A stretch of DNA of 64,000 nt. Source: a virus. The notes under the pieces were generated by a model. That model saw nothing but the letters and a program-made list of their open reading frames with translations, did no database searches and was not told the DNA's origin. Shown here piece after piece: positions 6,848 through 63,946 of this stretch (positions are counted from its first letter, which is position 1; each line of letters starts with the position of its first letter). The DNA is taken from positions 1-64,000 of the IMG/VR virus record IMGVR_UViG_3300046690_000348, one strand, 5' to 3'. The translations under genes and the position numbers were made by a program.

Positions 6848-8407
6848 TCAGTTCCCGGGCGGGCGGGTCGCTCCCCGGGACGGGATGATGTCGGGTTGGC
6901 CGATCCGTTCACCGGCCATCGTCGCGGTCGTGGCCTTGACTCGCTTCATCGCCAACTCGCGGAGATCCATGAACGCCTCGGATGCGGCGTCGACCATGTC
7001 GTCGTGGGTGCCGGATGGGAACACGGCGGCTTCCTCGATGAACTCCTCCCACCACTCCGGGGTGACGTAGTCGTCCTTGATCTTGTCGTAGCGGCGGACG
7101 AGAAACACGTTCTCGGCTTCCTGCTGCGCTGCGAATGGTTGCGCTTTGAGTTCCTTCTTCTGGTCGGTGCGCAACGCCTTCGCGGGGTATCCGGCGAGGA
7201 GACGCTTCACGTAGTCCTCGGCGGTGCGCTTGCCGGTGGCGCCCGGTTCCTGTTCGAGACGGATCAACACACGCCCGCCGTACATCTCATGGTCCTTGCG
7301 GGCCGTCGACTTGATCAACTCCTCGACGCCGAGCGACGAGAGGCGTTCGTGTTGGATGTCGAGGATGTAGAACTCGGAGCGGTCCGTGCGGCCCATCAGC
7401 ACACCGGCGGTGTAGTCGCCGTCGTCGGCGGTCGACGCCAGGTCCCAGCGGCGCACCAGGTGAGTCATCCGGCCGATCGGGGCGGTGTCGGCCTTCTGCC
7501 ACTTGAGGCGCTTGAAGATCTCGCCTTCGAGCGGCGCCGGGAGTTGCTGGTACATCCCGGCCCACTTGTACGGACCGGAGTCGATGCGGATGGAGTCGTA
7601 GTGCTCGGCGGAGAACCGTTCGGGCCACAGGGATTCGCCGAGGTTCCGGCCGAGGAGATCGGTCGCCGGGTCGTCGCACAGGGCGGGGATGCGTAGCTGC
7701 GTCCACCGGTGCGCGCCCTCGGAGGCGAGGATGCGCCCGGTGAGGTCGTCCTCGTGCCAGCGGGTTTGGACGATGATCACGGTCGAGCCGGGCTGCAACC
7801 GGGTCATCGGGACGGCCCAGAACCAGTCCCACACGTCTTGGCGCACGGTCGGCGAGTGGGCTTCCTTGAACGAGCGGAACGGGTCGTCAACGATGATGAT
7901 GTCGCCCGGGAGGCCGGTCATCGACCCTTCGATGCCGGACGTGCGCATCCCGCCACCGGCGGTTGTTTCCCACACGTCTCGGGCGTGGGCCAATGGTGAG
8001 ATTTGGAGGAGGAGTTCGTCGCCGAACTTCTCGACGGTGTCCTTCGTCGCTTTGCCCCACGACGCCGCGTAGCGGGCCTGGTATGAGCCGAGCAGGACGC
8101 GGACCTTGCCTTCGGTGAGGTGGTGCGCCCACGTCGGTGTCCACCGGGAGATCAGCATCGACTTGCCGGTCTGCGGTGGCTGGTTGACGATCAGCCTCCC
8201 GTTGCCTTGGGAGATCGTGTCGGCGAGGACGCGGCCGATGGCGCGGACGTGCGCCGGGCGCTGATAGGGGCCGGACATCTGGAACTCGCCGCCGAACCCT
8301 TCGGTCACGGGTTCGTGGCGGGTGATGTGGGCGGCGGTCCGGTCCGGGGTCAGCCGCCAGCCGTGCTCTGCGAGATCCTCGGAGAGGATGACACCGGCGG
8401 TCGGCAT
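6848..8407 (-). CDS. terL: Terminase large subunit
   Basis: 519 residues, a usual length for the DNA-packaging ATPase/nuclease that docks on the portal and fills the prohead. The ATPase domain has Walker A NQPPQTGKSMLI (about 75-86) and Walker B DIIIVDDPF (about 169-177). A coupling motif region follows, with TVIIVQTRWHEDDLTGR. The C-terminal RNase H-like nuclease is marked by RRWDLASTADDGDYTAGVLM (first acidic site) and GTHDDMVDAASEAF (last acidic site). The start at 8407 has no ribosome site but has TACAGT six bases upstream. A terminator-like hairpin lies upstream. The small-subunit candidate is 1.5 kb upstream (9857-10411). Confidence 0.93.
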   Translation of the reverse strand: MPTAGVILSEDLAEHGWRLTPDRTAAHITRHEPVTEGFGGEFQMSGPYQRPAHVRAIGRVLADTISQGNGRLIVNQPPQTGKSMLISRWTPTWAHHLTEGKVRVLLGSYQARYAASWGKATKDTVEKFGDELLLQISPLAHARDVWETTAGGGMRTSGIEGSMTGLPGDIIIVDDPFRSFKEAHSPTVRQDVWDWFWAVPMTRLQPGSTVIIVQTRWHEDDLTGRILASEGAHRWTQLRIPALCDDPATDLLGRNLGESLWPERFSAEHYDSIRIDSGPYKWAGMYQQLPAPLEGEIFKRLKWQKADTAPIGRMTHLVRRWDLASTADDGDYTAGVLMGRTDRSEFYILDIQHERLSSLGVEELIKSTARKDHEMYGGRVLIRLEQEPGATGKRTAEDYVKRLLAGYPAKALRTDQKKELKAQPFAAQQEAENVFLVRRYDKIKDDYVTPEWWEEFIEEAAVFPSGTHDDMVDAASEAFMDLRELAMKRVKATTATMAGERIGQPDIIPSRGATRPPGN

Positions 8408-9860: not shown

Positions 9861-10411
9861 TCGTCTCCCTTTCCTTCGAGCATGACCCGGTCGAGTTCGT
9901 CGGCCAGGTCGAGCAGTTGCGGGTGGGTGCGCAGCGCGGTGAGGATGTCCGCGCCGGTGGGGCCGTCGAGTTCGACATCGGTGCGGAGTTCGTCAATGGT
10001 GACGGCTTCGCCTCGGGCTTGGCGTTCGATCTTGATGCCGAGGTCGGCGAGCATCAGAGCTTCACGGACAGTGAGTTTCTCGATGTTGATCGCGCGTACC
10101 CGTTCGGCGGCGATGTCGAGCATCTGGAATCCGAGCGCGGCGTGACGGCGCCGCATGGCGTGAACGTTCTCTACCTGCTCGATCTGGTCTTGGCGGGCGA
10201 GGTAGTCATCCCACGATCCGACCCGGTCGGGCCAGTCGTACTGCTTCGAGTAGGTCGCCAACTGTCGCAGGTTCGTTGCAGTCGCGTTGCTGGCGAGCGC
10301 GCGCAGAGAGCGTTTGTGGGCGCCTTGGTTGCGGTAGTCGATGAACAGGGCGTAGGCCCGTGGGGTTTCGCCTGGGCGGCGGTCCCACGGGTCGAGTGCG
10401 TCGGGGGTCAT
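9857..10411 (-). CDS. Probable terminase small subunit
   Basis: 184 residues. N-terminal pattern WDRRPGETPRAYALFIDYRN, then RSLRALASNATATNLRQLAT and YDWPDRVGSWDDYLARQ. This is the helix-turn-helix followed by a W-x-x-R-x-x-x-W/Y signature typical of small terminases that recognise the packaging site. A helical C-terminus follows (AERVRAINIEKLTVREALML) that would form the oligomeric ring. It lies 1.5 kb upstream of terL on the same strand. Start at 10411 is inside the upstream stop. Confidence 0.7.
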   Translation of the reverse strand: MTPDALDPWDRRPGETPRAYALFIDYRNQGAHKRSLRALASNATATNLRQLATYSKQYDWPDRVGSWDDYLARQDQIEQVENVHAMRRRHAALGFQMLDIAAERVRAINIEKLTVREALMLADLGIKIERQARGEAVTIDELRTDVELDGPTGADILTALRTHPQLLDLADELDRVMLEGKGDE

Positions 10412-10644
10412 GGTGTACCTGCCAGCCAGGAGATTGCTTCGCCGAGGTCGTCGGTGATGCGGGGTGGGACGGTGTTGCCGGATCCTTCGGCCATGCCGAC
10501 AAGCCATGACATGTCCGAGATGAGCAGGACCACCCAGGAGCGGGCGGCGGCGGCTCGGTTGACGGCGGCGGCGGTTGCGTCGGCGCCTGCGTTCATTTCC
10601 CAGTCGTGCTGGTCCTGGTCTTGTTGACGTTGGTCGTCGCTCAT
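10408..10644 (-). CDS. Hypothetical protein (78 aa), likely leaderless
   Basis: MSDDQRQQDQDQHDWEMNAG hydrophilic start, then Ala-rich helix and SWVVLLISDMSWLVGMAEGS, a moderately hydrophobic segment. TACACT lies six bases before the ATG. Function unknown; first gene of the small-terminase unit. Confidence 0.65.
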   Translation of the reverse strand: MSDDQRQQDQDQHDWEMNAGADATAAAVNRAAAARSWVVLLISDMSWLVGMAEGSGNTVPPRITDDLGEAISWLAGTP

Positions 10645-11081
10645 GGTCGGAGTGTAGACCGATCAACCGCGGACGTGCGGGGATTAGTCGGGTGGCCGCG
10701 GGGTCGGCGTTCGATGCCGAGTTCCTCGTACGCCTCCACGATGAACCGCTCCCATAGGGCTGGGTAGTTCGCACGGACCCACGCGACCGCCTTGTGTTGC
10801 GTTCGGGTTTGGATCTTGAGGAGAGCGCCATCGCGGGCGTGACGGCGCTCCCGCAGGTCGGCGGATGCGGCAGCGGTGCAACCCGGGCAGCGACACCCGG
10901 CATTCCGGTACGTGTACGCCGAGACCCGTTTGCCTTCGATGTGATGGTCGCCGCGTTCGGCCTGTTCGGCCAGACGGGCAGCGCGGCGATGCTCGGGGGA
11001 GCAGAAGTACGGGACCGTGCCTGCGCTGCTTCGCCGGGGGAACGGCTCGCCGCACCAACGGCAGATCGCCTCACTTGGCAC
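10641..11081 (-). CDS. Zinc-finger protein, HNH-like or DNA-binding accessory (146 aa)
   Basis: N-terminus AICRWCGEPFPRRSS with YFCSPEHRR (C-x-x-C...C-x-x-x-H) and a second cluster YRNAGCRCPGCTAAAS, the Y-x-x-G-C-R-C-x-x-C module seen in many actinophage small proteins. The C-terminal half is helical and basic. GTG at 11081 is the earliest start compatible with the upstream stop. A role in nucleic-acid binding is inference; no HNH catalytic set was found. Confidence 0.65.
   Translation of the reverse strand: MPSEAICRWCGEPFPRRSSAGTVPYFCSPEHRRAARLAEQAERGDHHIEGKRVSAYTYRNAGCRCPGCTAAASADLRERRHARDGALLKIQTRTQHKAVAWVRANYPALWERFIVEAYEELGIERRPRGHPTNPRTSAVDRSTLRP
10651..10656 (-). promoter_or_regulatory. 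Candidate leaderless promoter (TACACT-N6-ATG)
   Basis: TACACT at 10651-10656, six bases before ATG 10644, inside the 3' end of the 10641-11081 gene. It could provide separate expression of the terminase small-subunit unit. Confidence 0.45.
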
Positions 11082-11241
11082 GGCTGACCTGGCAGTTTGG
11101 GCAGATGTCGCGGACGCCTTCCAGGATCCAGCCGTACCACTCGGCCAGGTCGCGGCGGGTGTCGCGGGCCTGGACGCCTTCGACCGGGCCGATGTCCTCG
11201 CAGTCGTCGCATTGGATGCGGGTCACCCGCTGGATGCTCAC
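11071..11241 (-). CDS. Zinc-ribbon protein (56 aa), GTG start
   Basis: Two C-x-x-C knuckles, IQCDDCEDIG and DICPNCQVSRAK, flank a helical middle (DTRRDLAEWYGWILEG): a complete minimal zinc ribbon. GTG at 11241 overlaps the upstream stop. Such ribbons often bind nucleic acids or RNA polymerase, but the target here is unknown. Confidence 0.7.
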   Translation of the reverse strand: MSIQRVTRIQCDDCEDIGPVEGVQARDTRRDLAEWYGWILEGVRDICPNCQVSRAK

Positions 11242-11393
11242 GACTCGATCACCGTGCCGTCCGGCAGGAGATGGATCACTTCGACAATCGCCCAGGTCCC
11301 CTTGTTCAACGCGAACCGCCACACGAACGGGAGGCGTTGCATCAGCCGGTAGCGGCGCTCAACCAGCCGCTCGGTGACACACGAGTTCGTCAT
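11238..11393 (-). CDS. Hypothetical protein (51 aa)
   Basis: MTNSCVTERLVERRYRLMQR basic N-terminus, beta-rich C-terminus (TWAIVEVIHLLPDGTVIES). Overlaps neighbours by ATGA/GTGA. Function unknown. Confidence 0.65.
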   Translation of the reverse strand: MTNSCVTERLVERRYRLMQRLPFVWRFALNKGTWAIVEVIHLLPDGTVIES

Positions 11394-11596
11394 GGTCGTT
11401 CTCTCAGTTCGGCTTCGGTGAGATCCGTTCGTAGATTCCCGACAACCCAGGTCGCCATCAGCCACGCGATGAACGTCCCCGCGAAGAACCCGACGATGAA
11501 CGCCCCATGCCACACGTTGCCGATCACGACCACGACAGCGACGATCACCATCCAGAGCAGCAAGAGACCGAGGTGACGGCGGACCACATCCCTCAT
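11390..11596 (-). CDS. Two-span membrane protein (68 aa)
   Basis: Basic start MRDVVRRHLG, then LLLLWMVIVAVVVVIGNVW and AFIVGFFAGTFIAWLMATWV as two membrane helices, and a charged C-terminus (NLRTDLTEAELRERP). Positive-inside rule gives N-in/C-in. Function unknown. Confidence 0.75.
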   Translation of the reverse strand: MRDVVRRHLGLLLLWMVIVAVVVVIGNVWHGAFIVGFFAGTFIAWLMATWVVGNLRTDLTEAELRERP

Positions 11597-11766
11597 GGCT
11601 CACGCGTCCATTGCATCTCATCGACCGGGATCAGCCGATCCAGGAAGAAAGCGCACGCCTTGTTCACCAGGAAGTTGATCGACACGTCACGCGCCGCGGC
11701 CTCCTCGACCAGCCGTTCGTGCAGATCCGGCTTCAACCGGATCGCCGTTGACGTCCGCGCCGTCAT
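11593..11766 (-). CDS. Ribbon-helix-helix DNA-binding protein (57 aa)
   Basis: MTARTSTAIRLKPDLHERLV followed by EEAAARDVSINFLVNKACAF shows the Arc/HicB/ParG-type ribbon-helix-helix: one beta strand (TSTAIRLKP), helix A, the D/N-x-S-I-N-x-L-V turn, then helix B. It probably acts as a dimeric repressor, perhaps of the early promoters, which is inference. Start overlaps the upstream stop. Confidence 0.75.
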   Translation of the reverse strand: MTARTSTAIRLKPDLHERLVEEAAARDVSINFLVNKACAFFLDRLIPVDEMQWTREP

Positions 11767-12392
11767 GGTGTCACCACGGCGACGAAGTGACGGCCGGGAA
11801 CCGGCAACGGATCGAGGGTGATTGAGTGCGGCGTACCGTCAGCATCGACAAGCAGCGCCAGCCCTGTCCCGGTCGAGAGCAGCACGTAGCGGCTTGCGGG
11901 GCGCTCCACGGATTGAACATCGACCACCGGCAGGACTTCTACGGTGGCGGCGGTAGACAGCAGCACAGAGCCGTCGTCGCATTCCTTGCCATCCCACACG
12001 CACTTGCCGGTCGCCTCGTTGAGGTACTTGTGCCAGCACTCTGCTCGTATCTCGCAGGGTTCCCCGACAGCCGGATCGAACTCGATGTCGTACCCGTCAG
12101 GACCGTGATCCTGGAAGCGCACCGAACGCTCAGGCACCCGCCAATGCGCCGGTTCGATCCAATCTCGACATGGGCCGAGATAGTCGTGGCCGTTCCCGGC
12201 TTCGACGCAGAGCGGGCACACGCCTTCGATGACGATGTAGACGGGCTGCGGGACACTGCCGAATCCGTCGCAGTCAACGCATCGGTAGCTTGGCGTGCTG
12301 CCCTCGCCGGTCCCACCGCATGTCTGGCAGGTCGGCCAGGTGGCGACAGCCGCCTCCCACTGGCGGTGTTCGTCGGCGTTGAGGAGGATCAT
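11763..12392 (-). CDS. Zinc-knuckle protein with DnaJ-like CxxCxGxG motifs (209 aa)
   Basis: Early residues contain TCQTCGGTGEG and RCVDCDGFGSV, the pair of C-x-x-C-x-G-x-G motifs of DnaJ-type zinc fingers. CPLCVEAGNGHDYLGPC extends the cysteine cluster. The C-terminal half is beta-rich (RYVLLSTGTGLALLVDADGT). There is no J domain, so this is not a chaperone homologue as such. Start at 12392 follows GAGGAGACGCC. Function unknown. Confidence 0.7.
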   Translation of the reverse strand: MILLNADEHRQWEAAVATWPTCQTCGGTGEGSTPSYRCVDCDGFGSVPQPVYIVIEGVCPLCVEAGNGHDYLGPCRDWIEPAHWRVPERSVRFQDHGPDGYDIEFDPAVGEPCEIRAECWHKYLNEATGKCVWDGKECDDGSVLLSTAATVEVLPVVDVQSVERPASRYVLLSTGTGLALLVDADGTPHSITLDPLPVPGRHFVAVVTP

Positions 12393-12559
12393 GGCGTCTC
12401 CTCGCCGTCATCGAACTCGAACACGGCGCAACCATTGATCCCGTTCATCAACGTGAACACGACCCCCGGGTAGCGTTCCTGCAACTCGGCTTTGATCGGG
12501 ACGAACCGCTCCCGACTCGCCCCGACATCGACGCCGATGATCACACCAGTGCGCTTCAT
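12389..12559 (-). CDS. Hypothetical protein (56 aa)
   Basis: MKRTGVIIGVDVGASRERFV start, central PIKAELQERYPGVVFTLMNG and acidic end (EFDDGEETP). Looks like a small alpha/beta fold. ATGA overlaps on both sides support it. No family recognised. Confidence 0.65.
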   Translation of the reverse strand: MKRTGVIIGVDVGASRERFVPIKAELQERYPGVVFTLMNGINGCAVFEFDDGEETP

Positions 12560-12711
12560 GGTGCGCTCCCAGGCGTGGGGACGTGGATCGCTACCCAGTC
12601 AGCGAGTGAAGCGATCAGCAGAGCGAGATCCTCCGTGTCGGAATCCCGGGCGCGACGCGCGACCATCACGGCGGCGTCTCGGATCAGTTCGAGTTCGGTC
12701 GGCACGCTCAC
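12556..12711 (-). CDS. Hypothetical helical protein (51 aa), GTG start
   Basis: GTG at 12711; MSVPTELELIRDAAVMVARR, then DTEDLALLIASLADWVAIHV. Two amphipathic helices; no recognised family. ATGA overlap with the downstream gene. Confidence 0.6.
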   Translation of the reverse strand: MSVPTELELIRDAAVMVARRARDSDTEDLALLIASLADWVAIHVPTPGSAP

Positions 12712-20378: not shown

Positions 20379-20785
20379 TGGGCGTCTCCGGTCTGGTCGT
20401 TGATGGTCTTGATCTCGCCGGTGCCGGTGTCGGCAACGCGGCGTGGTTCGCCGTCGAGTTGGACGACGTTCGTGAAGTCGAGCTTCGGTCGCGTCGGGTC
20501 CTCGCGGAACAGACCGCCGTCGCGGTCCGGGTAGAAGATGTCGGCGTCGCGTGGCGGCGGCGGGATCTTCGCTTTGACATCGGCCTTGACGACGAGCGTC
20601 CGGCCCTTCTTGTCGACGTCGACCACCAACGTCAGTGACGTCTTGCGTCCGCTGATGTCGGCGGCGGCGGCGATCTCCTTGATGCCCTCATCGAGTTCTT
20701 CGAGGGTTTCGCCGTCGAGGTGCTCGCGCAGCCATCGAATGAACGCTGACGGCTCCTCCTCTGGTGGTTGCTGTTCGTCTGTCAT
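20375..20785 (-). CDS. Hypothetical acidic protein (136 aa)
   Basis: Start at 20785 has a ribosome site (AAGAGAGGACACC). MTDEQQPPEEEPSAFIRWLR, helical acidic middle, then TSLTLVVDVDKKGRTLVVKA and a Pro-rich segment ending with Asp/Thr. Lies between a glycosyltransferase and the DUF2303 gene. No family recognised. Confidence 0.65.
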   Translation of the reverse strand: MTDEQQPPEEEPSAFIRWLREHLDGETLEELDEGIKEIAAAADISGRKTSLTLVVDVDKKGRTLVVKADVKAKIPPPPRDADIFYPDRDGGLFREDPTRPKLDFTNVVQLDGEPRRVADTGTGEIKTINDQTGDAQ

Positions 20786-21876
20786 GGTGTCCTCTCTTGT
20801 GTTGCTGCCATCGGTGCAGTATGACGAATCGCGGCGACACCTGACCATGCCTCGACGTAACGGTCGACGTGATCTTCCATCACCCACCGCGACGCGACTT
20901 CGCGCCCCTGCTCGGCTTGTTCGGCGCGCAGTGCCGGGGATTGGATCAACCGGCGCAGAGCGGACACCCACTGTCGGCCTCGGTCAGCAAGGTTGCCGCA
21001 GCCCTGCGCGGTGAACCGCTTGTATTCGTCGGTCGGCGAGCAGACGAACGGGACGCCAGTCGCCGCGTAGTCGAGTGGCTTGAGCCACGACTTCGAGCGG
21101 TTGAACATCGTGTCAGCCAATGGTGCGATGCCAATGTCGAAGCGGGCGACCTCGTGCGGGTAGCGGTCCATGCTGACACCGACGACGAGTTCGGGTTCCT
21201 GGGGCAAACTGAGCACCTGGTCGACGCGGTAGTTGTCGCCGAGCACGACGAGACGGGCCGATGGCTCCGAACGCAGCACCGTCGACATCGCGCCTTGCAG
21301 AACGTTCAAGTCCCCGGCGTGCGAACCGACCTTGCCGGTCCAACCGATCTTGACGACGTCCGGGTCCCTGTCTGCCAGTACGTCGAGGTAACGGCGCGGG
21401 ATGTGGTTCTCGACCACGATCGCCCGTTTCTGCCCGTAGACACGAGCCAGGGCGGGCGTGGTGACCACCACGGCGTCGGCGTACATGCAGCAACGCGCAA
21501 GGTGCTGCCAGTTCGCCTCGGGTGACGTCGCCGGGTTGAGGTACTCGAACGCGTCATGTTGGGCGTGAACGGCCGACAGGTCGTCATCGAGTTCGACCAC
21601 GCAGCGCACACCATTCTGCTGCAAGAGTTGGATGGCGAACACGTTGCGCCACGCCAGTGGACGTTGGAACACGACCACGTCGAAGTCGATGTCGCCGGTC
21701 AGCTTCGCCTGCGGGATCCCGCGATGGTCGAGGCCGACCATGACCGGCATCGAGAGCATCGGCCCGGGGGCGAACACCGTCACGTCATGCCCGGCGGCGC
21801 GGGCGAGTTCGCCGGGCCAACGCATCCGCAGATTCCCGCACGCGCCGTTGTCAGCCGGGTACAGGTGGATCCGCAC
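20782..21876 (-). CDS. Glycosyltransferase (GT-B fold, GT4-like)
   Basis: 364 residues. MRIHLYPADNGACGNLRMRW start, Rossmann-type N-domain (HDVTVFAPGP; VRCVVELDDDLSAVHAQHDA), IVVENHIPRRYLD, and C-domain KIGWTGKVGSHAGDLNVLQG, ARLVVLGDNYR, FDIGIAPLADTMFNRSKSWL and LKPLDYAATGVPFVCSPTDE, the K-x-L-E/D-x-x-A-x-G-x-P nucleotide-sugar motif of GT4 enzymes. GTG 21876 is preferred because GAAGGCGACA precedes it; a TTG at 21888 is possible. Transfers a sugar from a nucleotide donor. The acceptor (phage DNA base, virion protein or host envelope) is unknown. Confidence 0.85.
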   Translation of the reverse strand: MRIHLYPADNGACGNLRMRWPGELARAAGHDVTVFAPGPMLSMPVMVGLDHRGIPQAKLTGDIDFDVVVFQRPLAWRNVFAIQLLQQNGVRCVVELDDDLSAVHAQHDAFEYLNPATSPEANWQHLARCCMYADAVVVTTPALARVYGQKRAIVVENHIPRRYLDVLADRDPDVVKIGWTGKVGSHAGDLNVLQGAMSTVLRSEPSARLVVLGDNYRVDQVLSLPQEPELVVGVSMDRYPHEVARFDIGIAPLADTMFNRSKSWLKPLDYAATGVPFVCSPTDEYKRFTAQGCGNLADRGRQWVSALRRLIQSPALRAEQAEQGREVASRWVMEDHVDRYVEAWSGVAAIRHTAPMAATQERTP

Positions 21877-22159
21877 TGTCGCCTTCAATCACGTCGGCCT
21901 CGATGGCGTCCGGGTACTTCTCGGGTCCGCCGATGATCTGACCGGTCGGGAACATCTCGGAGAACACCTCGCGGACCGCTGCGAGCGGATCGGTGCCGCC
22001 CGGGAAGCGGCCGAACACGGCGGTCGGCGTCGAATGGACACGCATGTGGAGGAACGCTGGCGGCGCCGGATCGGTCGACTTACGACCCGTGCGTTCGAGG
22101 AACACACGGGCGGCTTCGTCCTGTTCGGCGATCGGGTCACGTGGCGCGTCGGCGCTCAT
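21851..22159 (-). CDS. Hypothetical protein (102 aa)
   Basis: Ribosome site AGGAGCCGAG before ATG 22159. MSADAPRDPIAEQDEAARVF, then FLHMRVHSTPTAVFGRFPGG and VFSEMFPTGQIIGGPEKYPD. Its 3' end overlaps the glycosyltransferase start by 26 bases. Function unknown. Confidence 0.65.
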   Translation of the reverse strand: MSADAPRDPIAEQDEAARVFLERTGRKSTDPAPPAFLHMRVHSTPTAVFGRFPGGTDPLAAVREVFSEMFPTGQIIGGPEKYPDAIEADVIEGDSADPPVPG

Positions 22160-53311: not shown

Positions 53312-53641
53312 TTAGAGCAGGATCGCCGACCACTCGATGGAACGACCGGTCCCGGCGGTCTGCTTCAACGTGAACTTCACCGACCAGACAGTGGGGATCG
53401 GAACGAACAGCTTGACCTCGTCGTCGGTCGGTTGCGCATCAGCCCACGCGTCGATGTACAACACCTGTTCGGTGGAGCCGGTCAACACCTTGAGGTAGGC
53501 GCGGGCCTCGATCACGTCACCGGCGGCGAGCGGCGCCAAGTTCAGCGCGAGGACATACGTCCCCGCGGCCGTTCGGGTCGTCAAGGTGTGCTCGGTTGAG
53601 ATCACACACGTCTGGGTTCCATCAGCGGAAGCGGTAGGCAT
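53312..53641 (-). CDS. Hypothetical structural protein (109 aa)
   Basis: Ribosome site AAAGGACGG before the ATG. MPTASADGTQTCVISTEHTL; beta-rich (YVLALNLAPLAAGDVIEARA; FVPIPTVWSVKFTLKQTAGT), of tail-associated composition. It lies directly before the giant gene and may cap or anchor it. No family recognised. Confidence 0.6.
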   Translation of the reverse strand: MPTASADGTQTCVISTEHTLTTRTAAGTYVLALNLAPLAAGDVIEARAYLKVLTGSTEQVLYIDAWADAQPTDDEVKLFVPIPTVWSVKFTLKQTAGTGRSIEWSAILL

Positions 53642-53651
53642 CGTCCGTCCT

Positions 53652-54794
53652 TTACGTTTCTTCTAGACCGAAGTTGAGCACACGCACCAGACCGCCACGG
53701 GGAGGGAACCCGCCCGACGTCTCGTAGATCGTCACGAACGGCGTCGTCGCGTGCGCGACCGCGAGGAATCGACCGTCCGGTGAGAATGCGCAGCCGTTGC
53801 CGTTACCGGTGGGCAGAGTGCTCGGATCGGCGAGTTTCGTGAACGTCGTCCCGGACCGGTCGTAGATCGTGACGAACGGGGTGCTCGAATGACCGACAGC
53901 GAGGAACCGTCCGTCTGGGGACCAGGCACAGGAGCGACCGTCATCCGCTGGCAGCGTCGCCGGGTCCGCGAGTTTCGTGAACGTCGTCCCGGACCGTTGA
54001 TAGATCGTGACGCGCGGAGAAACAAAATGAGCGGTTGCGAGCAGGCTGCCGTCCGGCGAGAACGCAATCCCGGTCACGATGTTCGCTGGCAACGATGCCG
54101 GGTCGGAGAGTTTCGTGAACGTGGTGCCGCTCCGTTCGTAGATGATGACGAACGGCGTGGTGCCGGTGCCAAGAGCGAGGAACCGTCCGTCCGGCGACCA
54201 GCAGCACCCAGTACACAGGTCAGGTGGCAACGATGCCGGGTTGGAGAGTTTCGTGAACGTCGTCCCCGAGCGTTCGTAGATCGTGACGAACGGCGTGCTG
54301 CCGGTGCCGACAGCGAAGAACCGTTCATCTGGCGACCAGGCGCAACTCAAGGTGCTTCCTGCTGATGGTTGCGTGATGCCCGCGATGTTCGTGAACGTCG
54401 CCCCGGTGCGTTCGTAGATCGTGATGGCGATGCCTTGGGCGAACGCCAGGAATCGGCCTGACGGCGACCATGCGCACGATTGTGCGTCGCTGCCGAGCAG
54501 CGTCACCGGGTCGGGCAGGGCCGTGAACGTCGACGCGGTCCGGTCGTACGTGACGAAGTAGTTGATCGCGCCAGCGCCGCTGACGGTGAGGAACCGGCCG
54601 TCAGGCGACCACGAAGCAGCGAGACCATTCCCCGGCGGCAAGGTCCCCGGGTTGGTCAGCTTAGTTGGGGTGATCCACGGATAGACCAACTCGGCCCGTG
54701 TCGATTGCGGCCGGTCCTGGCCGACGTCGCCGCCGTCTTGGGTAGAGAGGTTGCGGACGACGAGCGTCATCGAAGGTTTCAAGGCGTCGGCCAT
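53652..54794 (-). CDS. Seven-repeat SPDG beta-propeller (380 aa)
   Basis: Seven copies of a roughly 42-residue unit, each with C-A-W/F-S-P-D-G-R-F-L-A-V and F-V-T-I-Y-E-R-S-G-T-T-F-T-K-L. SPDGRFLTVSG, SPSGRFLAFAQ, SPDERFFAVGT, SPDGRFLALGT, SPDGSLLATAH, SPDGRFLAVGH and SPDGRFLAVAH mark the blades. Seven units make a closed seven-bladed propeller. An N-terminal 45-residue leader precedes them. Function probably binding (sugar or protein). TGATG overlap with the 54794 gene. Confidence 0.8.
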   Translation of the reverse strand: MADALKPSMTLVVRNLSTQDGGDVGQDRPQSTRAELVYPWITPTKLTNPGTLPPGNGLAASWSPDGRFLTVSGAGAINYFVTYDRTASTFTALPDPVTLLGSDAQSCAWSPSGRFLAFAQGIAITIYERTGATFTNIAGITQPSAGSTLSCAWSPDERFFAVGTGSTPFVTIYERSGTTFTKLSNPASLPPDLCTGCCWSPDGRFLALGTGTTPFVIIYERSGTTFTKLSDPASLPANIVTGIAFSPDGSLLATAHFVSPRVTIYQRSGTTFTKLADPATLPADDGRSCAWSPDGRFLAVGHSSTPFVTIYDRSGTTFTKLADPSTLPTGNGNGCAFSPDGRFLAVAHATTPFVTIYETSGGFPPRGGLVRVLNFGLEET

Positions 54795-56050
54795 CAGAGT
54801 TCCCCCGGATCTGGCATCCACAGATAGAAGTCGTCCTCGTACACCGTCTCACCGGACGTCTCGTAGAACAGGATGTCGGTGGAGCCGGATGACATGGGCA
54901 GCGTCATAAACCTTCCGTCCGGTGACCAGGCGCTCCCCTTGGTCGATCCGTTGCCGGTCGGCAGGACGGGGGCGACCATCGCCAGGAACTCGGAGCCGAA
55001 CCTGCGGTACAGAGTCACTGTCGCTCCGACGTGCATGAGAAGCGAGCCGTCCGGCGACCACGAGCAGCCACCCGCCGCCCCGGGCAGTGTCGCCGGGTTG
55101 GGAAGTTTCGTGAACGTGTTACCCGATCGTTCGTAGATCGTGATGAATGGGGTCGTGGAGTGGCCCATTGCGAGGAAGCGGCCATCCGGGGAGAACGCGA
55201 TGCCACCCGAGCCGTTGCCCGCTGGGAGGGATCCCGGGTCGGTGAGTTTCGTGAAGGTCGTGTCGGTGCGTTCGTAGATGGTGATGAACGGCGTGGTCGC
55301 GTGGGAGACGGCGAGGAAACGTCCGTCCGGCGACCAGCAACACCCTGCGGCGCTTCCTGTTGGTTGCGTCGCCGGGTTGGTGACTTTCGTGAATGTTGTC
55401 CCGGTGCGGTCGTAGATCGTGATGCGGATTGTCACGTTCGTCGTGTGGGCGACCGCGAGGAACCGTCCATCGGGCGACCATGCGAGTCCGTTGACGCCCT
55501 GCCCAGGCATCGACGCCGGGTCGGCGAGCTTCGTGAACGTCGTCCCTGAGCGTTCGTAGATGATGAGGAACACGGAGGCTCCGCCGCCCTCGGCGAGGAA
55601 CCTGCCATCCGGCGAGAACGCGATCGTGCTTCCCGCTGACAGCGCGGAGGCCGGATCGGCGAGTTTCGTGAATGTCGTCCCGGAACGCTCGTAGATCTTC
55701 AACGGCGGGGTGCCGGTGTGAGCGACGGCCAGCATCCGGCCATCGGGCGACCATGATGTCTCGAACGTCGAACTGCCCGGCAGCACCGCAGGCGGTGAGA
55801 GCCGCACCGGCTTGTGCCAGCGGAACAGGGGGACGAGATATTTGCCCCACTGGTCCTGTCGCAACACCGCGGTGATGGTGCGGGCGACATAGCTGCGGTA
55901 CCCGGCCAACGGGTATTTGACCGGGACATAGGTGATGGTTTGAGCGGTGTCGGTTTCGACGGCCTGCTCGACATCAACGAGCAGCAGACGCGTACGTGCG
56001 CCCTGAACGATACGAACATTGGTCGGTTGGCCGCGGCCTAGCTGGGCCAT
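54794..56050 (-). CDS. Seven-repeat SPDG beta-propeller (418 aa)
   Basis: Paralogue of the two neighbours: the blade motifs SPDGRMLAVAH, SPDGRFLAEGG, SPDGRFLAVAH, SPDGRFLAVSH, SPDGRFLAMGH, SPDGSLLMHVG and SPDGRFMTLPM give seven. The N-terminal 90 residues differ (MAQLGRGQPTNVRIVQGART; TQTITYVPVKY-like beta region) and may attach it to the particle. Start follows the stop of the 56061 gene closely. Confidence 0.8.
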   Translation of the reverse strand: MAQLGRGQPTNVRIVQGARTRLLLVDVEQAVETDTAQTITYVPVKYPLAGYRSYVARTITAVLRQDQWGKYLVPLFRWHKPVRLSPPAVLPGSSTFETSWSPDGRMLAVAHTGTPPLKIYERSGTTFTKLADPASALSAGSTIAFSPDGRFLAEGGGASVFLIIYERSGTTFTKLADPASMPGQGVNGLAWSPDGRFLAVAHTTNVTIRITIYDRTGTTFTKVTNPATQPTGSAAGCCWSPDGRFLAVSHATTPFITIYERTDTTFTKLTDPGSLPAGNGSGGIAFSPDGRFLAMGHSTTPFITIYERSGNTFTKLPNPATLPGAAGGCSWSPDGSLLMHVGATVTLYRRFGSEFLAMVAPVLPTGNGSTKGSAWSPDGRFMTLPMSSGSTDILFYETSGETVYEDDFYLWMPDPGEL

Positions 56051-56060
56051 CAGCTACCGC

Positions 56061-56528
56061 CTAGATGCGAGTCACCGAAAGAGTGCCGCGGGCGTTGACC
56101 GTCGCAGTCGTGTTGATCCGCAAGACGAAGCCTTCACCGAGCGCGCAGTCTGGTTCGGTGCCGAGCGGGAAGTTGTAGATGAGAAGCCCGCCGTTCGGCG
56201 TGAGGTACTTCTCAAGCAATGGTGTCACCGTTGTCGGCTCCGACGTCCACAGCGTGCCCGATGTGAACCCGGCGGTCAGGACGCGGCCGAGTCGTTGACG
56301 TGGCGTCGTTGACGTCGAGTTCGTGCCCGGCGAGTTCGTCGCCCACGTGCAGTAGCACAGTTCGACCGATGCGGGGACGGCGGATGCGGAGATCCCGTCG
56401 AAGGCGATCTCGAATCCGACGACCTGCAAACCGGAGTTGGCGTGGGCTTTGACGCCGAGCATCGACTTCGCCCCGGTCGTGAACGACCTTGCGGCTTCTG
56501 TCGAGCAGTCGTAGATCGGGGCTGGCAT
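56061..56528 (-). CDS. Hypothetical structural protein (155 aa)
   Basis: MPAPIYDCSTEAARSFTTGA, then MLGVKAHANSGLQVVGFEIA, LWTSEPTTVTPLLEKYLTPN and a C-terminal strand (TTATVNARGTLSVTRI). A jelly-roll-like virion accessory protein by composition; AGGAACCC before the ATG. It lies between two propeller genes. Confidence 0.65.
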   Translation of the reverse strand: MPAPIYDCSTEAARSFTTGAKSMLGVKAHANSGLQVVGFEIAFDGISASAVPASVELCYCTWATNSPGTNSTSTTPRQRLGRVLTAGFTSGTLWTSEPTTVTPLLEKYLTPNGGLLIYNFPLGTEPDCALGEGFVLRINTTATVNARGTLSVTRI

Positions 56529-56545
56529 GGGTTCCTATCTTTCCA

Positions 56546-57310
56546 TCACCAGCGGGTCGATCGGTGGACTGCGAACGTCTTGACGACCGGGTCAGGTGTG
56601 GTGGTGAACGTTTCGGTGAAGATCAGGCAGCCGGTGATCCAGTCCGATGAGGTGCCGGTCGCGCTGAACGACTGGGTGGCGGTGGCGTTGACGACTTTCG
56701 ATTGGAAGTAGGCGGCCATGCCGGTCGCACCGGCACCGTTGAACGTGCCGTACACCGCCGACCATGAGCCGTTGGTGGTGTCGGCGTCGCCGGTGACCGC
56801 AGCACCGTTCTCGTGACCGACCCAGCACAGTACGCCTTCATCCTGGGTCACGGATGGTGTGACGAGCGCCGTCGAAGCTGCGGCACCGACCGTGTTGCCT
56901 CCGGTCGCCCCCGAGTTCGTGCGATACGTGAGCACCCCGGGGGTGGACACCTTCATAAACGCGACAGCGCGGGCGACGAGCGTGCCGGACCAGGCCACGT
57001 TGACGGACGTGCCCGAAGCGATGAACGAGGTGACCGGGAACGCGACGCAGCGGACGTCGAGACCGTTGCTGGCGGTGGACGGGTCGTTCGCCCCGGTTTG
57101 GGCTGACACGGAAGCACCGACCGACCCGGACGCCGGGGTGAAGGTGATCGTGCCCGACATCGGATCAGCGCCACCGCCACCGGAGTTGTCATAAGCGATC
57201 AACGCGACGACGATGTCGCCGACGTTCAGATCGACGGCGGTCGTCACGGCCTGCGGCGACGCACCCGACGCGGCGTTCGCTGTACCGGCCCCGGTGAACG
57301 TGATCGTCAT
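56546..57310 (-). CDS. Hypothetical Gly/Ala/Thr-rich structural protein (254 aa)
   Basis: MTITFTGAGTANAASGASPQ, then VTTAVDLNVGDIVVALIAYD, similar in layout to the jelly-roll segments of the giant gene (x-V-G-D-x-x-x-A-x-I). TGVLTYRTNSGATGGNTVG-like repeats and FTPASGSVGASVSAQTG follow. Likely tail-adhesin or capsid decoration. TGATG overlap with the next gene upstream. Confidence 0.6.
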   Translation of the reverse strand: MTITFTGAGTANAASGASPQAVTTAVDLNVGDIVVALIAYDNSGGGGADPMSGTITFTPASGSVGASVSAQTGANDPSTASNGLDVRCVAFPVTSFIASGTSVNVAWSGTLVARAVAFMKVSTPGVLTYRTNSGATGGNTVGAAASTALVTPSVTQDEGVLCWVGHENGAAVTGDADTTNGSWSAVYGTFNGAGATGMAAYFQSKVVNATATQSFSATGTSSDWITGCLIFTETFTTTPDPVVKTFAVHRSTRW

Positions 57311-58434
57311 CAGTCACCACCGAGCCACGGCCGGAACGTCAACGCATATGGCATCTCGGTCAAGCGGCCCGTCTCGTTCGTCTCGTAGATCGTGACGAAC
57401 GGCGTCGTGGTGTGCGGGACCGCGAGGAACCGGCCGTCAGGTGAGAACGCGCTCACTTCGCTGAGTTGAGGCAGTGTGGACGCCGGGGCCGTCAGTTTGA
57501 TGAACCTTGTTCCGGCCCGTTGGTAGATCGCGATGTACGGCGAGTTGCTGTGGCCGACCGCGAGGAACTGGCCGTCCGGCGACCAGGCGCAGCCCTGGCC
57601 GTCGCTGGCCGGAAGCGAGTTCGGGTTCGCCGTCTTGGTGAACGTCGAACCGGACCGTTCATAGATCGTGACGCGCGGCGAGGTCGAGTGGGCGATAGCG
57701 AGGAACCGTCCATCGGGCGACCAGCCAGCACCTTGCCCAAGGCCGGTGGGCAGCGACGCCGGGTCGGCGAGTTTCGTGAGGGTCGTGTTGGTGCGTTCGT
57801 AGATGTGAACGTATGGAGTCAGCGTGGTGACGAGAGCGAGGAAGCGGCCGTCCGGCGACCACGCGCAGCCGTTGCCGTTGGTGGCTCCGATCGGCAGGTC
57901 CGCCGGATCGGCGAGTTTCGTGAACGTGGTCCCCGACCGTTCGTAGATATGGATGAACGGGGTCGAGGTGCTGGCGCACGCGAGGAAACGTGTGTCCGGT
58001 GACCACGCGACACCGAACGTCGTGCTGCCAGGTAGCGACACCGGATCGGTGAGTTTCGTGAACGTCGTGCCCGACCGTTCGTAGATGGTGATGAACGGCG
58101 TGGTCGTATGGCCGACAACAAGGAAACGCCCGTCCGATGAGAACGCACAAGAGTACGACGTCCCGGCGGGCAGCGTGCCCGGGTCGGTGAGTTTCGTGAA
58201 CGTCGTCCCGGCACGCTCGTAGATCGTGATGTTCGGCGAAGTGAAGTGAGCGACGGCGAGGAACCGGCCGTCCGGCGACCATGCGCACGTGTGACCGGTT
58301 CCGGTCGGCGGCGTTCCCGGGTCCGTGAGCTTGTTGGGAGCGGACCAGCGTGAGGTGACGGCCTGTTGCTGGCCGATCGAGGATGGGATCGAGGCGACGG
58401 TGGCGACACCGCCGAGGCGTGGGGCGTCAGCCAT
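57310..58434 (-). CDS. Seven-repeat SPDG beta-propeller (374 aa)
   Basis: Third SPDG propeller: the blades are marked by SPDGRFLAVAH, SSDGRFLVVGH, SPDTRFLACAS, SPDGRFLALVT, SPDGRFLAIAH, SPDGQFLAVGH and SPDGRFLAVPH, each followed by a V/I-T-I-Y-E-R-x-G-T-T-F-T-K-L strand. The N-terminus is MADAPRLGGVATVASIPSSI; the start overlaps the 58434 stop. Arose by duplication with the 53652 and 54794 genes. Confidence 0.8.
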   Translation of the reverse strand: MADAPRLGGVATVASIPSSIGQQQAVTSRWSAPNKLTDPGTPPTGTGHTCAWSPDGRFLAVAHFTSPNITIYERAGTTFTKLTDPGTLPAGTSYSCAFSSDGRFLVVGHTTTPFITIYERSGTTFTKLTDPVSLPGSTTFGVAWSPDTRFLACASTSTPFIHIYERSGTTFTKLADPADLPIGATNGNGCAWSPDGRFLALVTTLTPYVHIYERTNTTLTKLADPASLPTGLGQGAGWSPDGRFLAIAHSTSPRVTIYERSGSTFTKTANPNSLPASDGQGCAWSPDGQFLAVGHSNSPYIAIYQRAGTRFIKLTAPASTLPQLSEVSAFSPDGRFLAVPHTTTPFVTIYETNETGRLTEMPYALTFRPWLGGD

Positions 58435-58907
58435 CACGCGGCCCGGTAGAACCCGGCGCTGGCGATCCGGGCGAGAATGTCGGCCCCGTCCGGGGTGACG
58501 GCGAAGTCGTGCAACGTCAACGGCACCATCAGAGCGTCGGTCACCCCGGCCGATGACGGGTCGTAGCAGATCACCAGTTTCGACCATCCGTCCCCGGTGC
58601 CGATCCCGGTCCATGTCTGATCGGGAATGTCGAGATCGAAGCGGTCGTTCGCGTCGTCCGGGGTGATCGCCGCGAGGTCGGCTGCGGCGAGCACTTTGCG
58701 GGCGTACCCCGAGTTCGTCACCTCGTTCGTCGCCCCGGCGATCACCGCCGCGAACGTGTCCAGGTCGAGCAGCGTCGCATCCGACTGCAACCCGGACGTG
58801 GCGAGCGCGGCGATGACGAGCCGCGACCCGGACGGATCGCCGAGGTCGACACGGTTATATAGCTCAGTGACGCGGCCCTTGGCGATGTTAAAGACCGACG
58901 CTGCCAC
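58434..58907 (-). CDS. Small structural protein, paralogue of 37089 and 59991 genes
   Basis: 157 residues from GTG 58907 (MAASVFNIAKGRVTELYNRV). RLVIAALATSGLQSDATLLD, ATNEVTNSGYARKVLAAADL, DANDRFDLDIPDQTWTGIGT and GDGWSKLVICYDPSSAGVTD keep the family order. TACTGT with a 7-base spacer precedes the GTG. Forms part of the virion-surface block with the propeller genes. Confidence 0.65.
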   Translation of the reverse strand: MAASVFNIAKGRVTELYNRVDLGDPSGSRLVIAALATSGLQSDATLLDLDTFAAVIAGATNEVTNSGYARKVLAAADLAAITPDDANDRFDLDIPDQTWTGIGTGDGWSKLVICYDPSSAGVTDALMVPLTLHDFAVTPDGADILARIASAGFYRAA

Positions 58908-58914
58908 GCTGCCT

Positions 58915-58920
58915 ACAGTA
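58915..58920 (-). promoter_or_regulatory. Candidate leaderless promoter (TACTGT-N7-GTG)
   Basis: TACTGT at 58915-58920 and seven bases (AGGCAGC) before GTG 58907; near-identical to the tape measure promoter region (TAGTGT plus GGCAGCC). Confidence 0.55.
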
Positions 58921-58950
58921 CGAGTCGCGTCGCGCGACGGCGGGGGATGC

Positions 58951-59187
58951 TCACACCCGCTCCGAGCACGCCGGGCAGAGTTCCTGACCTTGTGGGGCGA
59001 AGTCTGCGGCGTACCCGTTCGTGATCGCCCAACGGCCACACAGGGTCGTGCCGATCGTCTTGCCTGCGTCACCGACCTGCGGGATGGCATGACGGCCCGG
59101 TTGCATGATGTGCCACGGGCGCAGCGGGTTCTCCTGGTCGACGCCGAGCACGGCCAGCTTGCGGCCGACCATGATCAGCTTGCCCAT
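58951..59187 (-). CDS. Hypothetical zinc-binding protein (78 aa)
   Basis: MGKLIMVGRKLAVLGVDQEN, RPWHIMQPGRHAIPQVGDAG, then ending ELCPACSERV. A C-terminal C-x-x-C plus one upstream Cys and several His. Unknown role in the head region. Confidence 0.65.
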   Translation of the reverse strand: MGKLIMVGRKLAVLGVDQENPLRPWHIMQPGRHAIPQVGDAGKTIGTTLCGRWAITNGYAADFAPQGQELCPACSERV

Positions 59188-62017: not shown

Positions 62018-63763
62018 TCACGGGCAGGTGCAAGGCGTGACCCCGGCAGGACCCGAGCCGTTGACGCACAGCGTGCTCAGGAGGCCGACCGACTCGAAGC
62101 CGAGCTTCGCGATGCCGATCCACTCCTCCATGAACAGTTGCAGGTCGTTGGTGCGGTTGAGCGTGCTGTCACGCACGAGGCCGACGTCGAGCGTGCCGCC
62201 GTCGAGACGCACGAACGTCCCTGGTGCGTAGATGTACGCCTTGACCTTGGTCGGGAACTGGTTGAGGCCACCGACCGCCTGCGCAGCGTTGAACTTCTGG
62301 GACGGCGTGATACCGGTCGGGTTGTCGTTGTACCAGATCGCGTCGATGTTGCGGGCCGACAGGGCAGCGGCGAGGTGGGCGTCGGTGATGTCGAAGTACG
62401 ACAGACCTTGATACCCGTCCATCGCCATGTCGAGCTTCACGGCCTCACGTGCCCAGTCCGGTGCGGCGACGACCATCGTCGCGTCGGACGCCATGCCCTG
62501 ACGCTTGCGGTAGCCGACCGTCGCCACGACCCAGTCGTGCAGCAAGCTGCGCGAGAAGCCGTAGCAGAAGTTCCCGGTGACCGCCGTCGAGTTCGAGTTG
62601 ACGTAGTCGAGGTAGAACACCTCTTTGGTCGACGTGAACTGGACGGCGACGTCCTCAAGGAACGCCGACACCTGCTCCGGGAACACCTTGTAGTTGAGGT
62701 TGTCGAACGTGACGCACTGCGACACGGCCGACACCTCTGCCGACGAGGTGCTCGGGCAGGAGACGGTGATGCACGCCTTCGGCCCGGCCGAGAACTGGAC
62801 GAAGCCCGCCGCGAAGTTGCGGTTCTGAGCCGAGATGTCGATCGCCGCGGCGGCGGCGGCGACGGACGGCGGCACGATGTAGTTGATGCCGCCACGCGGA
62901 GCCTGCACCACGCTGGTGCCTTGCTCAAACGGGTTCTGCGGCTCGGCCAGCCGGAAGAACTCGTAGCTCGGGGCGTACGCCGCGCAGGCGTGGCCCGAGG
63001 CGACGAGTGCCTTCGGGGCACCGGCCTGGACATCGCGGAGGATGCGGAAGTTCTCCGCCGCGTCCATCTGCGAGAGACCCTCGCCCTCGATGAACTTGTC
63101 GGTGTGGGCGATCGACACGAAGTCGCGCGTCCCGCCCGGCACCGACGTCAGGCTGAGCCGCTTGTTGACGATCGCCGAAGCGACGGCCAGCGGATCCTCG
63201 AACGGCGTGCCTTCCCGCATGTGCGGGGCGTGCGCCGTGGCGACCATGAAAGCGTCGCTGGCGTCCTTGCCTTCGCGGAGCTTCGAGCGGGCCGACTGGC
63301 GGGCCGACAGAGCCGCGACGTTCCCGGGCACTCCGCCCTTCGGCGCCGTGAACCCGGCGACTGCGAGCGCCTGGGTGACACCGGCCGAGACCGCTGCGGC
63401 GATCTGGTCGATGACGGCTGGCTCGGGCGCCGCTTCCTTGGCCTTCGGCTTGCCGTTCTCGTCCAGGTCCTCGTCGTTCTCGCCGATGACGGTCGGGGCA
63501 GGCTCGCTCACGATGTCCTTCTTGAAGCGGCCACCGGCGGCTTCCTTGCGGCCGTCGAGTTCGGCTGCCTCGGTCGAGCGCCGGTTGTTCTCGGCGTCGA
63601 TGGCGTCGGCCTGCTGCGAGAGCAGTTCGAGTTCCTCGACGCTCTCGGGCGAGGACTCGGCGTCGGAGAGTTCCTCACCGCGCGAGTTGATCTGCTGCTC
63701 CAAAGCCGTCAACTGATCGGCTTCGAGTTGCGTGAGGTCCTGGGGGAAGTTGATGACGTCCAT
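62018..63763 (-). CDS. Major capsid protein with N-terminal scaffold-like region
   Basis: 581 residues. The first ~190 residues are acidic, helical and coiled-coil-like (TALEQQINSRGEELSDAESS; LLSQQADAIDAENNRRSTEA), with GRFKKDIVSEPAP and a linker. This is the delta/scaffold domain normally removed by a maturation protease. The rest has HK97-fold features (AAENFRILRDVQAGAPKALV, FVQFSAGPKACITVSCPSTS, EVFYLDYVNSNSTAVTGNFC, VVAAPDWAREAVKLDMAMDG, FVRLDGGTLDVGLVRDSTLN). Ribosome site GCAGGAGC before ATG 63763. Confidence 0.85.
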   Translation of the reverse strand: MDVINFPQDLTQLEADQLTALEQQINSRGEELSDAESSPESVEELELLSQQADAIDAENNRRSTEAAELDGRKEAAGGRFKKDIVSEPAPTVIGENDEDLDENGKPKAKEAAPEPAVIDQIAAAVSAGVTQALAVAGFTAPKGGVPGNVAALSARQSARSKLREGKDASDAFMVATAHAPHMREGTPFEDPLAVASAIVNKRLSLTSVPGGTRDFVSIAHTDKFIEGEGLSQMDAAENFRILRDVQAGAPKALVASGHACAAYAPSYEFFRLAEPQNPFEQGTSVVQAPRGGINYIVPPSVAAAAAAIDISAQNRNFAAGFVQFSAGPKACITVSCPSTSSAEVSAVSQCVTFDNLNYKVFPEQVSAFLEDVAVQFTSTKEVFYLDYVNSNSTAVTGNFCYGFSRSLLHDWVVATVGYRKRQGMASDATMVVAAPDWAREAVKLDMAMDGYQGLSYFDITDAHLAAALSARNIDAIWYNDNPTGITPSQKFNAAQAVGGLNQFPTKVKAYIYAPGTFVRLDGGTLDVGLVRDSTLNRTNDLQLFMEEWIGIAKLGFESVGLLSTLCVNGSGPAGVTPCTCP

Positions 63764-63787
63764 GCTGCGTCGTGCTCCTGCGTCGTG

Positions 63788-63831
63788 ATAGCCCTCGCGG
63801 GCGGTGGATGAACTCACCGCGGGACGGCTAT
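63788..63831 (-). promoter_or_regulatory. Leader hairpin upstream of the major capsid gene
   Basis: ATAGCC (63788-63793) pairs with GGCTAT (63826-63831), and GCGGTG (63801-63806) with CACCGC (63815-63820): an imperfect stem ending 24 bases before the start codon. It could control ribosome loading or mRNA stability. No gene lies in 63764-63949. Confidence 0.4.
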
Positions 63832-63911
63832 GCCGCTCGCTCACGACGGAACTACGCGCGTCGATCGACGCCCAAGTTACATGGGTGTCGTTACCGGAAT
63901 GGTGGATACCC

Positions 63912-63946
63912 CGCGACTCTCGCGTGGGAAACACGCGAGAGTCGCG
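63912..63946 (-). terminator. Strong 15-bp hairpin upstream of the capsid gene
   Basis: Perfect inverted repeat CGCGACTCTCGCGTG (63912-63926) and its complement (63932-63946) with a 5-base loop, four bases downstream of the stop of the partial gene at 63950. Acts as its terminator or as an RNA-stability hairpin. No T-run. Confidence 0.65.

Follow-up and report, generated by a model that had tools for sequence, protein, structure and literature searches.

What does a phage do with three neighbouring genes for the same kind of repeat protein, placed at the end of a row of head genes? We analysed bases 1-64000 (hereafter the window) of the 66,926-base IMG/VR virus record IMGVR_UViG_3300046690_000348, in which three minus-strand genes, here named A, B and C, encode SPDG-type repeats (Table 1). 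The sequence-only reading of this DNA had proposed three tandemly duplicated, closed propellers within a structural block, which may diversify host-surface recognition. The coordinates and the count of seven repeats per gene were confirmed. Each repeat is a blade of ~46 residues, with anchors 44-48 residues apart (138 nt in the DNA) that span residues 62-337 in A, 100-375 in B and 52-330 in C. The N-termini do differ, with 61, 99 and 51 residues ahead of the first anchor in A, B and C, respectively, and the N-terminus of B gave no match. The interleaving of small genes holds between C and B, where two are found, but not between A and B, which overlap (TGATG).

Table 1 Propeller genes, their neighbours and other features of the window.
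Feature	Position	Strand	Remarks
LVIVD-repeat protein, 712 aa	41074..43212	+	PF08309 8e-26; tail-tip segment
LVIVD-repeat protein, 400 aa	44628..45830	+	PF08309 1e-11; tail-tip segment
Repetitive protein, 2073 aa	47080..53301	-	Closes the row; 45% identity to sister phage over 1188 aa
109 aa protein	53312..53641	-	Follows A; assigned to no known family; not present in sister phage
Propeller gene A	53652..54794	-	380 aa, seven blades; start overlaps B stop (TGATG)
Propeller gene B	54794..56050	-	418 aa, seven blades; ~80-residue N-terminal part with no assigned fold
155 aa protein	56061..56528	-	Between C and B
254 aa protein	56546..57310	-	Directly after C; start overlaps C stop
Propeller gene C	57310..58434	-	374 aa with seven SPDG blades; TGATG overlap of its start with stop of preceding gene
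218 aa ORF	58434..59090	-	Before C; phrog_26662, 6e-36; true start probably further in
Major head protein ORF	62018..63934	-	phrog_777, 2e-64; same gene row as propellers

The minus strand carries head genes, whose products include several small proteins and one of 310 aa (phrog_779). The propellers come next in the order C, B and A, and then the 2073 aa repetitive protein. A plus-strand tail module, convergent with this row, opens with the tape measure protein (30830) and has a VanY/peptidoglycan-binding protein near its end. The propellers of this phage come after head genes and not after tail genes. Nearly all annotated phages with a relative of the major capsid protein (MCP) infect actinobacteria, so an actinobacterial host is probable. 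Just past the window end, the head-gene row contains a 697 aa portal/protease-like ORF (L006 7241-9334, minus strand) with matches to portal phrog_859 and head maturation protease phrog_18402, possibly a portal/protease fusion or a shared domain. On the record, ~55 kb separate the large terminase (6848-8407, minus strand) from the portal and head genes; unless the genome is circular, so wide a spread is unusual. The 2073 aa protein consists of many short repeats of the TITIPPGDLTLTGVAPTVT and VDxNRRRSTLAVATRR types, without a match in Pfam, PHROG or the phage collection. Searches of the phage collection by tblastn gave no matches for the 155, 254, 712 and 2073 aa proteins. In IMG/VR, 10 other loci encode relatives of the 155 aa protein, and in the stretches examined these loci have no propellers; 4 other loci encode relatives of the 254 aa protein.

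Matches of A, B and C to Pfam propeller profiles, with E values of about 1e-10 to 1e-21, rule out chance as the source of the repeats. The whole-protein scores against PF00400 were 61.6, 47.8 and 48 bits (curated cut-off 27), and single repeats hardly pass alone. The phrog_19311 profile matched across the propeller (9e-45 for A, 6e-51 for B and 1.5e-40 for C). Enzyme readings as a lactonase or as DPPIV were dropped as generic repeat matches. The AlphaFold model of A is a seven-bladed propeller with a mean pLDDT of 86 and a pTM of 0.84; that of B (pLDDT 79, pTM 0.78) leaves the first 75 residues unmodelled, and most of its blade residues exceed 90. The best PDB matches for both were the designed WRAP-T proteins 7big and 7bie, the WD40 domain 5yzv from Thermomonospora, and 2ymu, which is highly repetitive; the single-domain entries 7big, 7bie and 5yzv gave target TM-scores of ~0.8 with A and B. 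In all three proteins the last blade is without an outer strand, and an N-terminal segment of the KLT/NPGTLP type provides one (for example NKLTDPGTPPTG in C). This segment is predicted to supply the strand that closes the ring, the usual propeller closure, and the prediction agrees with the strand pattern in the models of A and B. The models and the fold search thus support the claim that A and B are closed seven-bladed propellers, with blades of four strands, and for C the sequence supports the same fold.

As in the WD40 and PD40 (SPDG) propellers (PF00400, PF07676; 5yzv, 2ymu, 7big/7bie), seven four-stranded blades, the SPDG turn and closure by an N-terminal strand are found in A, B and C. 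Unlike canonical WD40 repeats, their blades lack the GH and WD dipeptides and end in IYER or IYDR, with IYER in place of the WD ending. Identity to the solved matches is ~14-25%, and the blade consensus is nearest to phage proteins. The same blade type occurs in phrog_19311 (1023 aa, no assigned function) and in phage proteins named "WD40 repeat" or "WD40/YVTN repeat-like" (MW202701, POR1 and uncultured Caudovirales phages). In contrast to these, A, B and C are free-standing single propellers, three to a gene row.

Scanned with the A/B/C alignment, IMG/VR yielded relatives at 68 loci; C alone as the query yielded none. Seven blades were counted in 43 of the 70 distinct complete proteins with at least three blades, six in 10/70 (in which one diverged blade was probably missed) and fourteen in 3/70. 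The best viral match had an E value of 3e-106 at 53% identity, compared with 4e-21 at 27% for the best among the matches listed from bacterial and archaeal genomes. Judged against those listed cellular matches, this is strong evidence for a blade type carried mainly by phages. The triplet, for which the sequence-only reading knew of no counterpart in a phage, is not unique: at locus L015 three free-standing seven-bladed genes adjoin one another, and locus L017 has three seven-bladed genes in a row that carry LamG and tail-fibre-like parts. Both belong to unrelated phages and lie in tail modules, whereas A, B and C follow head genes. At another locus (L030; record G013, contig 10093-12696) the propeller frames are broken mainly by TAG (4 TAG in one, 3 TAG and 1 TAA in another); either the genes have decayed or TAG is a sense codon in this phage.

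How the three copies arose is less clear-cut than the proposed tandem duplication. In a tree of 48 rows, A, B and C fall on one branch, which is weakly in favour of duplication with an SH-aLRT of 94 (below the 95 mark). Against it, their end branches are long (0.57-0.94) and comparing their blades in register gives little or no more similarity than comparing them rotated: in-register identity is not above rotated for A-B and B-C, with a weak register signal for A-C. This register test gives no support to a recent tandem duplication, which does not fit, and an old duplication with later blade exchange does. The long branches and the absent register in A-B and B-C also speak for a separate gain of A, B and C from other phages, without duplication in this lineage. 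So does a copy-to-copy identity of ~46-57% (C is 51-54% identical to B and A), which is near that to unrelated phages (best segment 53%). We nevertheless consider separate gain somewhat unlikely, given the common branch, the weak A-C signal, the fact that the three are each other's nearest by blade identity, and their common IYERSGTTFTKL where most relatives have IYKRSGDTFTKL.

Comparison with a sister phage (L081/L082, record G001) showed how variable this part of the genome is. Its MCP is 91% identical, and it is colinear with the window over the compared stretch, with identities of ~90% for head genes and ~52% for the tape measure; the 2073 aa protein evolves faster than the head genes. A glycosyltransferase-like gene (20782-21888, minus strand; phrog_7162), whose product may modify host or virion glycans, is 87% identical in the sister. 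From 53312 to ~58950, however, the window has no match in the sister (slot 53.3-58.95 kb). The slot there holds other genes, one of which matches a minor tail family (phrog_553), and no SPDG propeller was detected in the whole sister record at the sensitivity used. Likewise, no propeller was found near the MCP in any MCP relative, five of which were searched over the whole record. Since the propellers are missing from the sister and from the surroundings of the MCP in the more distant relatives, the propeller cassette is accessory and exchanged as a block, as seen against one sister lineage. Unrelated phages do have the domain in their structural operons; the absence near the MCP of its relatives therefore points to an accessory cassette and does not refute a virion role. 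Most of the tail-tip segment (37.1-46.7 kb) is likewise replaced in the sister: a match of 31% persists for a 782 aa protein, and next to none for the others. This segment encodes the two LVIVD-repeat proteins, whose repeat type is commonly regarded as propeller-forming. The phage may thus carry propellers, putative in the LVIVD case, in both segments that differ from the sister.

We then considered which proteins carry the blade domain elsewhere. Adjoining genes of locus L013 (7320-11080) encode a Baseplate_J protein with a propeller (PF04865 4e-29, phrog_6) and a gpI-like protein with a propeller (phrog_4920, weakly phrog_203). The blade sequences of the two L013 propellers are almost alike (80% cross identity), which suggests that a propeller was copied recently between the neighbouring genes. 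Propellers were also found inside a phrog_376 tail protein (L028, L046), and in L017 they have a tail-fibre-like N-terminus ahead of them and a LamG domain behind. In L047, L052, L063 and others the propeller is flanked by short stretches ending GYAKESG..G.SKKV, as if inserted in a small domain. Among 81 flanking genes of relatives, matches to tail-fibre, baseplate and tail families predominate in a family scan that had no matched control set. The L015 triplet has major tail proteins on one side and a tail-completion protein on the other, and in annotated phages the blade domain is found beside capsid, tape-measure or baseplate genes. By their sequence families, the common denominator of these carriers and neighbours is host-contact machinery. 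The proposal of a structural block with a part in surface recognition gains indirect support from the tail and baseplate fusions, the tail-fibre and baseplate neighbours and the replaced sister slot, and loses from the lack of a propeller near the MCP of MCP relatives.

We consider it probable that A, B and C are accessory virion adhesins, free-standing propellers that bind the host surface and are encoded in a swappable cassette. The three proteins would be translated, partly coupled, at the end of the late head-gene row, consistent with the observed gene order and stop/start overlaps. Each would fold into a ring, with its own N-terminal strand completing the closure (a confident prediction for A and B), and may attach to the particle through the differing N-termini or neighbouring proteins. 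The ring would then bind a host-surface ligand, such as a glycan of the cell wall or capsule, or a protein exposed there, and the three diverged copies may provide three specificities or denser binding. The cassette is exchanged as a whole, with the tail-tip genes differing too, as observed against the one sister phage. No ligand site was identified: blade variability is highest in the B-C loop columns, with one A-B loop column and one strand-a column also high, and does not single out one face. Diversification by a diversity-generating retroelement was rejected, as no reverse transcriptase (PF00078) was found in the record, which may be incomplete.

The position after head genes makes head decoration a real alternative. 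The propellers would then sit on the capsid surface and lend a general stickiness to cells, mucus or other matter without setting the host range, comparable to capsid-displayed Ig-like domains such as Hoc of T4, which is described as a variable capsid-displayed fibre (PMC10385173). A, B and C do continue the row of head genes, with the tail module convergent on the other strand, and some relatives match phrog_24741, filed under head/virion structural. Most carriers and neighbours of the domain elsewhere are nevertheless tail or baseplate proteins, and the phrog_553 match in the sister slot is to a tail family; we therefore regard head decoration as unlikely.

WD40-type propellers are common intracellular scaffolds, and A, B and C could instead be late-expressed proteins that are no part of the virion and work inside the infected cell, either as scaffolds that bind other proteins, perhaps to counter host defence, or as helpers in assembly. 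No particle-attachment signal was found in A, B or C, and the unmatched N-terminus of B is compatible with such a role. The repeated fusion of this blade type to baseplate and tail proteins and its housing in structural gene rows of annotated phages make a non-virion role distinctly improbable compared with the adhesin reading.

A propeller is already part of a known host-recognition device. The receptor-binding protein of Staphylococcus phage phi11 has one, and this phage depends on GlcNAc of wall teichoic acid (PMC4901313). There it is one part of a single multi-domain protein, and the likeness to A, B and C lies in the use of a propeller. No phage SPDG/WD40 propeller family described as a virion adhesin was found in open-access papers. 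The locus is a good example of a widespread, poorly described phage domain rather than a new kind of system. More tentatively, the SPDG propeller could be a phage-specific plug-in recognition domain, passed among unrelated phages on baseplate, phrog_376 tail, tail-fibre and free-standing carriers, and a main receptor-binding scaffold like Ig-like or C-type-lectin folds; the present phage would then hold two classes (three SPDG and two LVIVD) in the segments replaced in its sister. Phage WD40-like repeat proteins now bear automatic names or 'unknown function' in PHROGs. If the proposal is true, recurrence, varied tail carriers and cassette exchange would give these families a function, a route to receptor-binding genes in uncultured phages would follow, and the propellers would offer a regular scaffold for binding studies.
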